A stretch of 64,000 nucleotides of DNA, from positions 243,107 through 307,106 of the forward strand of contig NZ_JTGN01000005.1 in NCBI RefSeq assembly GCF_000797495.1. Reading direction: 5' to 3'. The notes under the pieces are model-generated. The model was given only the letters and a program-made list of their open reading frames with translations. It ran no database searches and was not told the DNA's origin. Origin of the DNA: Robinsoniella peoriensis (GTDB lineage: Bacteria > Bacillota > Clostridia > Lachnospirales > Lachnospiraceae). Numbering within the stretch: position 1 is the stretch's first letter; the number at the start of each line of letters is the position of its first letter. A program made the translations under genes and the position numbers. Below, piece after piece: positions 1,856-49,876 of this stretch.

Positions 1856-3550
1856 TTATACCTCACTCTTTGGCAGGCGTATCTCGATCACTGCTCCTCC
1901 GGCATCTCCATTCCCAAATTGAATATGTGCTTCTTCTCCATATATAAGTGCCATTCTCTGACATACATTGTAGATTCCGATATGCTCCCCGTTTTGTTTT
2001 AATATAACTTCATTATTTTTCAGCTTTTCCAATATATCACTTTCGAATCCATCTCCGTTATCCGATACTGAAATGTAGAGATATTCTTTTTCCTCTTCCC
2101 CCATAATATATTTTACCTCCACGGTAATGAGAAGCTGCGACTCCGGGCTTAACTGGTGTTTGACCGAATTATCCACGAAGGTCTGAATCAGCATGTTGGG
2201 GATCATCTCTCCATCCACTTCCCCCTTTTTACTTAGCACCAGGCTCAGCTGGTCTTCATAACGCAGTTTTTGCAGGCATATGTAATTCTCTACATGTTCC
2301 AGCTCATGCAAAACGGATACTTTTGTATCGCTTCTCAATGTATACCGCATGTATTTGCTTAAGACAACCGTCGCTTCCCGGGCTGAATCTTTTCGGTCCA
2401 GCAGAAGCAGATTCTGAATCAGACTCATGCAATTTGTCAGAAAATGAGGGTCAATCTGTACCTGCAGATACTGGAGCTGGGCTTTTTGCTTGTGTATCTG
2501 TTCTTCATAGACATGAATTTTCAGGGATTCTATTTCTTCCGTCATGAGATCAAAGGTTTTATTTACAATCTGGAATTCTTCAAACTCCTTGTCATTTGCA
2601 AGCTTCACCTTCAGATTCCCGTTTTTAAGCTGCTGCATTGCCTGCACAAGCCGGTTCAGCGGTTTTAAAAAATACCGGTTTAGCAAAAACAGTACCAATG
2701 CAGAGAGAATCGCCACAGATACCAGGGTTACCGCCACATTGATTCCAGCCACCCGGAGTTCATCCAGGAATCCGCCTTTCTTCTTCAGTACCGCAATGGA
2801 CAGTCCATGGTTTTCAATATCCACCTGGATATTCTGATAACGGTTTTTATTCAGGACCACCTCATCCTGTCCGGTCAGTTTGATCTGCCGCTCAGTGTAG
2901 TGAAGATCCAGTACCTTACCGTCTTCCCGGCACAGGAAGATAAAGTCTGAGTCCGCACCCAGACCTACTTTCAGTTCTTTTAATATATTTTCTATTTTAA
3001 CCCAGCCCGCCACATAGATTTGCTGGTTCTCCAGTACTTTAATGAGGCAGGTATCATTTAATATCTGTACGGTAAACCACGAACCCTGCCCCTCTCTTTC
3101 AAACTTGGCAAGGGTATCGTATATATTCTTATAAATATCTGTGTTTTGCTGAGACGTTACGCCATTTTGCACACCGCTTAAGTAAATGTCATTTTTCCTG
3201 TCATATAGAAATATTCCATCCAGCATTTTGTAATTGCCTATCTGCTTCATAAAATCAGATTTTATGGATAGTTCCGCCATATACCGGTCCAGTTCCCTCT
3301 TCGGATTCACCAGTTTCCTCTTTTCCTCTTCCATCAGGCTTTGGGTAAGCAAAAAAGTCTGGATATTGTCCAGATTACTCTCAATCTGGCGGTTATAAAT
3401 GCCAATTGTAGCTTTCACCGAATCTGTCACGCGTCTTTCCATCAGATGCATGATGTAATAATTATAGCACATTACACATGCACACAATATAATCAGGACA
3501 GCGCTCACTATTTCCACAATAAAATAGCGAAGTGAATGATTTTTCTTCAT
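1856..3550 (-). CDS. YesM-family sensor histidine kinase
   Basis: A 564-residue membrane kinase. TM1 spans about 8-30, an extracellular sensor region about 31-265, TM2 about 268-291, and a HAMP linker about 292-345. The phosphoacceptor His369 sits in the QIDPHF motif typical of the YesM/LytS class. The ATPase domain shows an N-box (TFVDNSVKH) and a G1 box (SDNGDGF). It is seven bp downstream of the response regulator gene, so the two form an operon with the binding protein that follows. The signal is unknown; the neighbouring binding protein and sugar transporter suggest a sugar. Confidence 0.93.
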   Translation of the reverse strand: MKKNHSLRYFIVEIVSAVLIILCACVMCYNYYIMHLMERRVTDSVKATIGIYNRQIESNLDNIQTFLLTQSLMEEEKRKLVNPKRELDRYMAELSIKSDFMKQIGNYKMLDGIFLYDRKNDIYLSGVQNGVTSQQNTDIYKNIYDTLAKFEREGQGSWFTVQILNDTCLIKVLENQQIYVAGWVKIENILKELKVGLGADSDFIFLCREDGKVLDLHYTERQIKLTGQDEVVLNKNRYQNIQVDIENHGLSIAVLKKKGGFLDELRVAGINVAVTLVSVAILSALVLFLLNRYFLKPLNRLVQAMQQLKNGNLKVKLANDKEFEEFQIVNKTFDLMTEEIESLKIHVYEEQIHKQKAQLQYLQVQIDPHFLTNCMSLIQNLLLLDRKDSAREATVVLSKYMRYTLRSDTKVSVLHELEHVENYICLQKLRYEDQLSLVLSKKGEVDGEMIPNMLIQTFVDNSVKHQLSPESQLLITVEVKYIMGEEEKEYLYISVSDNGDGFESDILEKLKNNEVILKQNGEHIGIYNVCQRMALIYGEEAHIQFGNGDAGGAVIEIRLPKSEV

Positions 3551-8982: not shown

Positions 8983-9035
8983 GCTTTGTATATAGGTAAT
9001 GTACGAAAAGATGGGGAAAACTGGTATGGAAAATC
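8983..9035 (+). repeat. Truncated copy of the long-hairpin repeat family
   Basis: The stretch CTTTGTATATAGGTAATG, then TACGAAAAGATGGGG and AAACTGGTATGG, matches the 5' end of the full repeat copy at 10861-11220 read on its minus strand. Only the outer end is present. It lies between the nuclease-like gene and its terminator. Confidence 0.7.
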
Positions 9036-9064: not shown

Positions 9065-9919
9065 TTACATTGATATACTTTTTGGTATCTTCAGGATATC
9101 TTCTATTGCCATTTCTGTAAATTCTGCTATCTCCTGTATGGTTTTCCCGGCACGAATCATGTTTTCTGCAATTTTTATCTGCTTTCTGTGTTCACCTTCC
9201 TCCAACCCTTCCTCAAATATGATTCTCTCTACTTTCAACATACGAATTTCCCTCCTTATCTCTTCTGCCAGCTGACTGCTTATAATCTTATCAGCGAAAG
9301 TCAATAGTCCCGCCATAATAAACGTGCGGTCGTTTTCATTTTGTATTTCTTTTGCTAACATGATGATTTCTTTTAGAAGAACTTGTTTTTCTTGTTTTCC
9401 TTTTACTGTTAATGGTAATATAATCAGTTGCATATTTTCATCATCTGTCAGTTTCTCATGGCATTTTATTTTCTTCTTTATATTTTCATAAATACGGGCA
9501 GTGTCTAAGCCGCATAGAAATGCCTGCTCAATTTTAAAAGTAAGGCATCCAATATCCAGAACATCGTTTGCCTGTTCCACATCGGAGGTATATAGGATTA
9601 AAACCCTAATTTTCACCCCTATCCATCCCTTTCCCAACCTTTTTAATATTCTGCAGACATAGCTCAGATAATCTAAAATATCATCATTTAAAAATTTGCT
9701 TTCATAATCTACCAGTACAATGCTGTTATCTTCCAGCAAAAACAAATTGTCTAATCTCAGCTCATTTACTTGAATGCTGGGCAGATTGGTTGGCAGTACC
9801 TCTATGATCCTGGGTAAATCGATTCCGTAAACAGAAAATGATTTCTCTTTTAGTGACTCAGCAAAAATTTTAGATAAAATATCTTTGTTTTGATACGCAA
9901 TTCCTTCCAACGACAGCAC
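9065..9919 (-). CDS. Rpn/transposase_31-like PD-(D/E)XK nuclease-family protein
   Basis: A 284-residue protein of the type common in Lachnospiraceae and annotated as Rpn-family or PD-(D/E)XK nuclease-family putative transposase. The N-terminal part opens with IAYQNKDI and continues to LPTNLP, ELRLDN and LVDYESK. Asp of RLDN and the D-x-E-S-K element form a plausible PD-(D/E)XK active site. The C-terminus has an EEGLEEGEHRKQ segment and a helix-turn-helix-like tail typical of the group. The start shown is GTG, close to AAGGAG; a TTG at 9910 would be better spaced. Its partners are unknown; it sits between a truncated and two full hairpin repeats. Confidence 0.75.
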   Translation of the reverse strand: MLSLEGIAYQNKDILSKIFAESLKEKSFSVYGIDLPRIIEVLPTNLPSIQVNELRLDNLFLLEDNSIVLVDYESKFLNDDILDYLSYVCRILKRLGKGWIGVKIRVLILYTSDVEQANDVLDIGCLTFKIEQAFLCGLDTARIYENIKKKIKCHEKLTDDENMQLIILPLTVKGKQEKQVLLKEIIMLAKEIQNENDRTFIMAGLLTFADKIISSQLAEEIRREIRMLKVERIIFEEGLEEGEHRKQIKIAENMIRAGKTIQEIAEFTEMAIEDILKIPKSISM

Positions 9920-10252
9920 TCTCCTTCACGTGCAAACGTACCATCATACATATATTACGTGAAAAGGAAAATAACTTTTAAGTATATATGTAACATCATA
10001 CTTTGCTTAACAAACAGGGGTTTTTGATTTGAATAAATCAGAAGTTTACAGAAAATAAAAGATTATAAAATACACATAAATTGATCGGTGAATTTCTTAT
10101 TTTTTTTAATATATCATAACTATAAGAATAATGCAAGGGTTTATTCTACTAATACTACAATTCATAATTTCCGCTTATAAATATACTACAACAATACTGG
10201 TCTTTACTTAGCGAGGATATCGGGAGTCCATGCGGTTATAAAATACTAAATT
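9920..10252. other. AT-rich intergenic region, nothing recognised
   Basis: About 330 bp of AT-rich sequence upstream of the nuclease-like gene. It presumably holds that gene's promoter, but no convincing -35/-10 pair, open frame or structured element could be assigned. Confidence 0.5.
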
Positions 10253-10613
10253 TGGGTTTAGCTGATTAAGACGCTTTGTAGATGTAGGTAGTGTACGGAA
10301 AGAGAAGGGGGCGGACCAGGACATTGGTTTGAAAGGCTTACCGCAGAACTGGCATTTTCTAACCTTCCCGGAGCACTTTTTGGCGGCACGCGGGCATTCG
10401 CTCCGAAATCCTGATGCATTTCGCAGCTCACTGCCCGCTTAGTATCCGATGGGAGCCAGTCGAATACTATCCGCCAAAAAGCACTTCGGGAAGGTAAGTA
10501 AATGCTCAGCTCTGCTATACGCCTTCAAAACCAATGTCCTGGTCCGCCCCCTTCTCTTTCCGGGATGCAGTTTATTGATACAAAGCTGGTTTTCTCAGCA
10601 GGGTGGGACCCCG
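10253..10613 (+). repeat. Long-hairpin repeat, copy 1
   Basis: About 360 bp able to fold end to end. An entry motif GACGCTTTGTAGATGTAGG leads to GTGTACGGAAAGA. The outer stem then pairs 10297-10337 with 10521-10561 (about 40 bp, few mismatches). The inner part carries CTAACCTTCCCGGAGCAC and TTTTTGGCGG, which pair with CCGCCAAAAAGCACTTCG and GGGAAGGTAAG. A tail with CAAAGCTGGTTTTCTCAGC follows. Copy 2 shares the entry, inner part and tail but has a different outer stem. No credible reading frame was found, so a structured RNA or non-coding mobile repeat is likeliest. Confidence 0.75.
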
Positions 10614-10860
10614 GGCATGTGGCATGCCGGACGTTATTGGCTTAGATCACATATCACATAAAAACCAATAAACCAGCTGGATGTTATCATTCTGAACTGT
10701 CTCTAAATTCTACTGCAGTATATTTGTGATTTTAGTACCTACATCCAGTTAAGTTTGTGATCAGGAAAGCAGGTAAAATTTCGTCTTATCATCCCCCTTT
10801 CACACTGAACTGCCGTAACACACTCTGCTGCATCCAAAAACGAATAGACCGTCACAGCCC
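10614..10860. other. Unique spacer between the two inverted repeat copies
   Basis: About 250 bp separating the head-to-head repeats. No gene is seen. The flanking tails remain partly complementary, so the repeats and spacer together make one large inverted repeat (10253-11220). Confidence 0.5.
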
Positions 10861-11220
10861 AGGGGTCTCCACCAGGCTGAGAAAACCAGCTTTGTGGCAG
10901 TAAACTGGATCTCGGAAAGATGGGTGTGGGAAACTGGTATGGGCGGAGGAAGCGTAGAGCAGAGCTGAGTATTTACTTACCTTTTCGAAGTGTTTTTTGG
11001 CGGATAGTATTCGACTGGCTCCCATCGGATACTAAGCGGGTACTGAACCGAGAAATGCATCAGGATTTCGCGGTGAATACCCGCGTGCCGCCAAAAAGCG
11101 CTTCGGAAAGGTTAGAAAATACCAGTTCTGCGGCCAGCTGACGGAGCCCATGCCAGTTTCCCACACCCATCTTTCCGTACATTACCTATATCTACAAAGC
11201 GTCCTAATCAGCTAAACCCA
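10861..11220 (-). repeat. Long-hairpin repeat, copy 2 (inverted relative to copy 1)
   Basis: Read on the minus strand this copy starts TGGGTTTAGCTGATTAGG and then CGCTTTGTAGATATAGGTAA, nearly as copy 1. Its outer stem pairs 10914-10944 with 11146-11176 (31 bp, one mismatch), with a sequence unrelated to the copy 1 stem beyond GGAAAGA. The inner hairpin is about 90 percent identical to copy 1 by eye. The outer limits 10253 and 11220 begin with the same TGGGTTTAGCTGATTA. Confidence 0.75.
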
Positions 11221-11271
11221 TATATAATACACAATAGTGTCCCTTCCCCGTACAACCTGTTCAATGTAATA

Positions 11272-11886
11272 CTAGAGCGTGTTCTGATCACGCAAATCAA
11301 TAATAGTTGTACAAACCCGCTCAGCCAGCGCTTTATTATGTGTCACCATCAGCAGTCCCAGATTCCTGCTTTCTACTTCCTTCAGCATGAGCTTCCAGAT
11401 CTGAGCCTGGGTAATCACATCCAGCATAGTGCTCATTTCATCCGCCAGCAGAAAATGTGTTCCATGAAATAAGGATCTTGCCACACAAAAACGCTGTAGC
11501 TCTCCCCCGGATAATTCCCTGGGATATCGACCCAGCCACTCGCTTTCTATTCCCAGCGCCTCCATCACCTCATCCCGGAACATGCCGGATTCCTCCAGTA
11601 CTTTTTTCATCTTCCATCTGGGATTAATTGCCTTTTCAGGATGCTGGTAGATCAGCTGGACCGGGCAGACGCCTTTGGGAGTCATTGGTTTTTCGTCCAG
11701 CAGTATCTCTCCCTGATCCGGCTTTAAATATCCGCCCATCAACCGTAACAGTGTACTTTTACCATAGCCGCTGGGGCCCACCAGCCCTACCCGCTCTCCT
11801 TCTTCCACTTTCAGGTTCACATCCTTTAATATCCAGGGAGCATTTTCATGATATCGAAAACTGACATTTCTAGCCTCAAGTTGCAT
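11272..11886 (-). CDS. Nickel/peptide ABC transporter ATPase (NikE/DppF-like)
   Basis: A 204-residue ATP-binding subunit, shorter than typical DppF (about 320) because the C-terminal oligopeptide extension is absent. Walker A reads GPSGYGKST (Tyr in place of the usual Ser), the signature is LSGGELQR, and Walker B is FLLADEMS. The start overlaps the upstream ATPase gene by 11 bp, which indicates translational coupling. It is the last gene of the five-gene operon 11272-16595. Confidence 0.9.
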   Translation of the reverse strand: MQLEARNVSFRYHENAPWILKDVNLKVEEGERVGLVGPSGYGKSTLLRLMGGYLKPDQGEILLDEKPMTPKGVCPVQLIYQHPEKAINPRWKMKKVLEESGMFRDEVMEALGIESEWLGRYPRELSGGELQRFCVARSLFHGTHFLLADEMSTMLDVITQAQIWKLMLKEVESRNLGLLMVTHNKALAERVCTTIIDLRDQNTL

Positions 11887-49668: not shown

Positions 49669-49740
49669 ACAGGAGGACGCATAAAAGGAACTTGTTCTTA
49701 TCTGCCCTCCCGCCCTACAAACCCAACGGTATAAAGGAAA

Positions 49741-49876
49741 GCTTTGTAACATTGAAGTATATCCCTGAAAGAGCAGAAGGCAGGCAAGGACAGGGGCTGA
49801 GAAAGTTTTGCCATTTCTGTGGCAAGCCTTCTCAGCCCCTGTCCTTGTCTGCCTTCTGCTCTTTCCGTACACGAAA
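49741..49876 (+). repeat. Long-hairpin repeat family, copy 3 (compact)
   Basis: A 39-bp stem (49767-49805 with 49827-49865) has one internal mismatch plus one at the apical end. The cap is a second TTGCCA/TGGCAA hairpin. The left flank GCTTTGTAACATTGAAGTAT and right flank CTTTCCGTACAC correspond to the entry motif of the copies at 10253-11220. The stem sequence differs from both of them. It lies after the LacI gene and could also serve as its terminator. Confidence 0.65.

Follow-up and report, generated by a model that had tools for sequence, protein, structure and literature searches.

A 64,000-nucleotide stretch of Robinsoniella peoriensis DNA (the window) carries one copy of a non-coding, near-palindromic, MITE-like repeat of ~1.0-1.1 kb. 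The repeat is a dispersed family with dozens of copies over the genome. The full element has its own hairpin in each arm (A on one side, B on the other) around a common core, plus outer and inner inverted repeats. Within each hairpin the arms are kept matched by double-sided, sometimes multi-base changes, and the A and B arms of an element do not track one another. The element is probably a MITE-like palindrome without a transposase, spread in trans, whose local hairpins are kept matched mainly by template switching. The region had been described in an earlier note as hairpin repeats with unrelated but self-complementary stems. That observation is sound locally, its strong interpretation fails at the family level, and arm copying is its best-supported part.

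The near-palindromic element spans 10244-11229, with a terminus near 11274. Its left half, on the + strand, consists of the outer inverted repeat (10244-10303; 60 nt, 90% complementary to 11170-11229, ending GACGCTTTGTAGATGTAGGTAGTGTACGGAAAGA), the near arm of stem A (10296-10335), the left copy of the core hairpin (10336-10522; 187 nt, 89% complementary to 10952-11138, with an internal repeat), the far arm of stem A (10523-10562) and the inner inverted repeat (10555-10606; 52 nt, 87% complementary to 10869-10920). Beyond a central spacer (10607-10868, no strand), which differs in length and sequence among copies, the partners follow on the - strand: the inner repeat (10869-10920), the far arm of stem B (10913-10951), the right core copy (10952-11138), the near arm of stem B (11139-11177) and the outer repeat (11170-11229). 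Stem arms were placed by inverted-repeat search and stem reading, and each element arm holds one local inverted repeat (A, 10296-10351/10507-10562; B, 10913-10967/11123-11177). A right terminal module (11230-11274, - strand) ends TAGTATTACATTGAAC, a relative of TAGTACTACAGCGAAC, and extends to the stop codon of an ABC gene at 11272; its left counterpart lies somewhere upstream of 10244, its placement being imprecise. The longest open reading frame within 10244-11229 encodes 73 aa, so the element has no transposase of its own. Its predicted fold energy was -601 kcal/mol, versus -294.5 +/- 9.6 for 20 shuffles (z -32).

What had been called copies 1 and 2 are real hairpins, but they are inverted mirror arms of one element and not separate copies. 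Their entry and inner hairpin had been judged roughly 90 percent alike, in agreement with 90% over 60 nt for the entry and 89% over 187 nt for the inner part. The far arm of each is indeed complementary to its near arm: copy 1 has its initial 35 bases identical (43/48 in all), and copy 2 its initial 25 (34/40). The two stems do differ from one another, agreeing without gaps at 21 of 42 positions, the shared first 8 counted in.

We surveyed the genome as 32 contigs totaling 7.39 Mb. Allowing at most 2 mismatches, we located the end motif GACGCTTTGTAGATG at 170 places (91+79) versus 10 (7+3) for a reversed control, and a terminus like TAGTACTACAGCGAACARTTT, with up to 3 mismatches, at 57 places versus 0 in the control. 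Using the A half as query, with 40 of 206 candidates scored and the window's own included, we obtained 86 matches at 83-100% identity; the best of these 40 scored candidates besides the window copy reached 97%. Subsequent analyses relied on 74 regions extracted around the first 100 of the 170 end-motif places and the earlier matches, and thus on part of the family. Flanks of the copies (400 bases) have little in common beyond short terminal modules. Element size varies, and the many shorter derivatives look, by eye, like deletions; one element of 48 bp (L181:2202-2249) is nearly just both termini. Among 41 two-end elements flanked left and right by ORFs of 110 aa or longer (74 regions plus the window), these ORFs were tandem in 26, convergent in 9 and divergent in 6, and in none of the 41 did an ORF run through the element.

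The earlier note implied that stems vary freely from copy to copy, which is refuted by the 118 ends read in the 74 regions and the window: 55 carried stem A, 54 stem B and only 9 neither. Loci with exactly two ends (n=37) were A/B in 34 cases and B/B in 1, and included another kind in 2. A search for hairpins delimited by GAAAGA/TCTTTC gave no further clear stem class, its third group consisting of one A variant and a hairpin at 49767-49865. This last hairpin, reported as a third stem that was "again different", is real (39/42 paired; DNA fold z -14.4), yet it is a diverged A stem, its right arm being identical at 50/64 positions to the end motif, A stem and core start. Each of the 10 changes in its near arm is also present in its far arm, where 4 more are seen (hypergeometric P 7e-7). 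With A or B in 109/118 ends, the outcome of the scan and the match of the 49767 hairpin to A, the ends read show two stem families and not many. Of the interpretation offered at the time, joint change of both arms holds within the A and B families, whereas free stem variation across copies does not. The 49767 hairpin belongs to a solo family relic (49738-49872, - strand) comprising a possible inner repeat, the part taken from visual reading of the alignment, an A-type hairpin in which the core is mostly missing, and the start of an outer repeat. Elsewhere in the window, a B-end relic of end motif and B stem (8985-9035, + strand) showed 83% identity over 54 nt and no visible partner arm.

Joint change of the arms was assessed in 72 hairpins (39 A and 33 B), collected on the condition that each arm match a 16-base stretch with no more than 3 changes; hairpins unpaired at these ends were dropped, so the sample favors paired outer ends. 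Both-sided changes filled 126 cells in A, versus 44 +/- 9 with 3' arms shuffled among copies, and 46 cells in B, versus 12 +/- 4 (0/500 shuffles as high in either case), although these counts are of non-independent events because related copies share ancestry. The excess was present in the outer stem and in the core of both A and B. By script classification, the A hairpins with agreeing arms fell into sub-types A1 (17), A2 (11) and A1' (6), set apart from one another by several bases in each arm; the A2 block and the A1' block may each represent a single event. Departures from sub-type consensus in these 34 A hairpins included 5 shared by both arms (4 distinct; ~0.16 expected), with 26 confined to the near arm and 20 to the far arm. 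The 33 B hairpins showed 19 shared departures from consensus (6 distinct; ~0.9 expected), most of them in one group of similar copies, with 29 near-only and 8 far-only. Five of the 39 A hairpins were left out of this count: L032, L050 and L075, the arms of which are clearly of unlike sub-type, L095, with a misaligned far arm, and L072, an A2 hairpin with a single change. A further hairpin, L054, was classed A1/A1 by script and is partly mixed in appearance. Since at least 3/39 A hairpins have mixed-type arms, pairing is not strictly required.

The matching of arms depended on distance. Near and far arms agreed better within the same hairpin than between different hairpins, both in A (0.948 versus 0.878, n=39) and in B (0.956 versus 0.925, n=33), with 0/2000 permutations as high in either, though this short-range match is inflated by shared ancestry. 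Mirror parts showed no within-element match, in line with what independent mutation alone leads one to expect: values were 0.883 versus 0.884 for the A and B cores (23 elements; 1693/2000 permutations as high) and 0.872 versus 0.871 for the outer repeats (19 elements; 792/2000). Arms lie ~155 bp apart within a hairpin and 430-870 bp apart between mirror arms. Taken together, both results indicate that the force keeping arms matched works on close arms alone.

Of the two explanations originally put forward, selection for pairing and the copying of one arm from the other, arm copying fits better. It would operate by template switching at replication (quasipalindrome correction), in which the nascent strand folds back and one arm templates the other. 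Such correction would be effective over a short loop and ineffective for mirror arms, which are 430-870 bp apart. Were it effective at short range alone, A and B would have drifted apart while each stayed self-complementary. Copies would have spread by transposition in trans, with transposase supplied from elsewhere. Selection on the local hairpins, acting on a structured RNA or on a DNA hairpin or cruciform bound by transposase or host protein, would instead make the two-sided changes ordinary compensatory mutations; it is possible for these hairpins, if rather unlikely. In its favor are the surplus of two-sided changes, seen for A as for B in outer stem and core alike, and the strand read from inside to outside, on which distinct single transitions leaving G-U numbered 43 versus 16 leaving A-C (P 0.0006). 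However, the opposite strand reads G-U 16 versus A-C 43, and with strand-reversed counts and A and B inverted, one transcript through the element cannot account for both hairpins. No Rfam family was found on the element at gathering score, a further point against selection. It is because changes partly arrive as multi-base blocks, one-sided mismatches survive (46 in 34 A hairpins) alongside the mixed-type hairpins, and the effect is limited to close arms that arm copying is preferred over selection.

Further accounts were weighed. In a nested insertion, a palindromic core would have landed in the loop of hairpin A and in that of an unrelated hairpin B, with stem sequence reflecting the target in each case, and the centre would have taken further insertions. 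A core common to both halves between unlike stems fits such a history, as do a coreless A hairpin in L058, the 49767 hairpin without most of the core, the IS1182-family element at the centre of L058 and the varying spacer. Against it, an ACCA at the junction of the coreless L058 hairpin was found by eye in both parental arms, which is what a deletion would leave, the 49767 hairpin retains the core start, A and B have an identical end motif, and the later two-sided changes in A and B are left unexplained. We regard it as improbable. The same grade applies to an undescribed kind of bacterial fold-back transposon, the ends of which would carry different self-complementary DNA hairpins (A and B) that a missing transposase reads as left and right end, with the result that shape is kept as sequence drifts. 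Chance or decay is refuted: some elements are truncated, as in the 9/118 ends with neither stem, but the fold energy, the excess of motif places over the control and the permutation results for arm matching are all opposed to it. Arm copying by template switching remains the likeliest reading.

Published accounts of quasipalindromes agree with arm copying in several respects. Template switching is reported to homogenize arms, produce multi-base changes and be associated with shorter spacers (PMC8604942), and to give rise to hairpin stems and preserve them (PMC8794818). The family shares the arm homogenization, multi-base double-sided change and dependence on short spacing described there. Multi-base changes complementing the other arm are seen in the hairpins, where the sequence of events would be that of correction, and near and far arms are matched while distant mirror arms are not. 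Unlike in that literature, the process here would be read from many natural copies of one genome and at ~155 bp spacing, and the spacers searched in PMC8604942, of up to 70 bp, are shorter than ours. The wider spacing would be eased by the core, which is itself a hairpin and would draw the arms together.

Two-sided stem changes are usually regarded as strong evidence for functional RNA. Here a single genome supplies 72 analysed hairpins with two-sided changes between close and not distant arms, and without a known RNA. The palindrome family offers a natural system for testing arm copying and a caution for covariation tests on mobile palindromes.

Comparison with known repeats places the family nearest to MITEs, of which it has the multi-copy, dispersed distribution, terminal inverted repeats (60 nt, 90%) and absence of an own transposase (longest ORF 73 aa). 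Bacterial MITEs and small non-autonomous repeats such as Correia/NEMIS, RUP and ERIC (reviewed in PMC2229807) are likewise non-coding, with terminal inverted repeats, many dispersed copies and shorter derivatives; the element differs from them in its ~1.0-1.1 kb length and the arm-specific hairpin in each half, and no related autonomous element was found. REP/REPIN sequences (PMC3733652, PMC3116915) are palindromic and of high copy number like the element, but REPs reportedly measure 20-40 bp versus ~1 kb here. A literature search returned nothing on fold-back, palindromic MITEs of bacterial genomes; matches for Lachnospiraceae MITEs were unrelated judging by title, as were those listed for IS1182 and palindromes by title or start of abstract. 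By sequence comparison, the element appears confined to this genome among those compared. BLAST against 144 other genomes, with 3 candidates scored in each, gave no match, and the terminus with up to 1 mismatch had no match in 396 genomes of the family; at the genus level the comparison comprised its own genome alone. Neither plasmids and phages nor, for the exact pattern, viral contigs and genome contigs gave a match, sets that may omit this genome and its close relatives.

As to mobility, the terminus is often directly adjoined by a YTAR-like tetramer, which by eye is identical on both sides in only 2/10 pairs taken as real ends (L047, L048). Exact repeats indicative of target duplication were not above a re-paired-end control among 127 end pairs, a set into which a loose pattern brought many chance pairs. 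Transposases of two types, IS1182 and presumably IS3, were the sole ones recognised among the ORF groups found repeatedly in the 74 regions; the presumed IS3-like transposase recurs near palindromic copies at five loci (L046, L052, L055, L074, L081). One palindromic copy has at its centre an IS1182-family element (L058:2527-4191; G000:C5:563026-564690) that carries an intact gene for a 526 aa transposase, scoring 332.5 bits against NCBIfam NF033551 (cut-off 270). Genome-wide, this transposase has 17 protein matches, of which several lie at the ends of contigs; further IS ends adjoin element sequence, and the IS also occurs outside palindromes (L140). Sitting between the two halves of its host copy, it is an inserted element. 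A role as mobiliser is unsupported, the IS having its own ends, GAGGCCACTGAAAAA, and occurring outside palindromes as well, nor does the palindrome look like a derivative of it, its terminus being TACTACAGCGAAC versus GAGGCCACTGAAAAA. We also rejected as partner a neighboring gene at 9065-9919 (- strand) with weak likeness to the Rpn recombination-promoting nuclease/putative transposase family, of PD-(D/E)XK-like type: it scored 25.5 bits against TIGR01784, below the cut-off of 52.1, with no Pfam match, and in none of the 74 regions surrounding the other copies did tblastn (E up to 0.01) find a relative.

Several minor observations accompanied the survey. The sole Rfam match in the window at gathering score, a cobalamin riboswitch (RF00174, 23106-23290, - strand, 91.7 bits), lies away from the element and was set aside as an RNA family for it. 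At the centre of another copy, L101 (within ~2705-3232), a ~200 bp piece has IS1182-like ends (GAGGCCACTGAAAAA ... TTTTTCAGTGGCCTC) and is perhaps a small derivative of the IS1182-family element. Beside copies in the flanks of L031, L040, L086, L167 and L174 there was another repeat, the ends of which resemble CTAGAGCGTGTTTTAAAA; it is possibly a second palindromic family and in some cases abuts the terminus.
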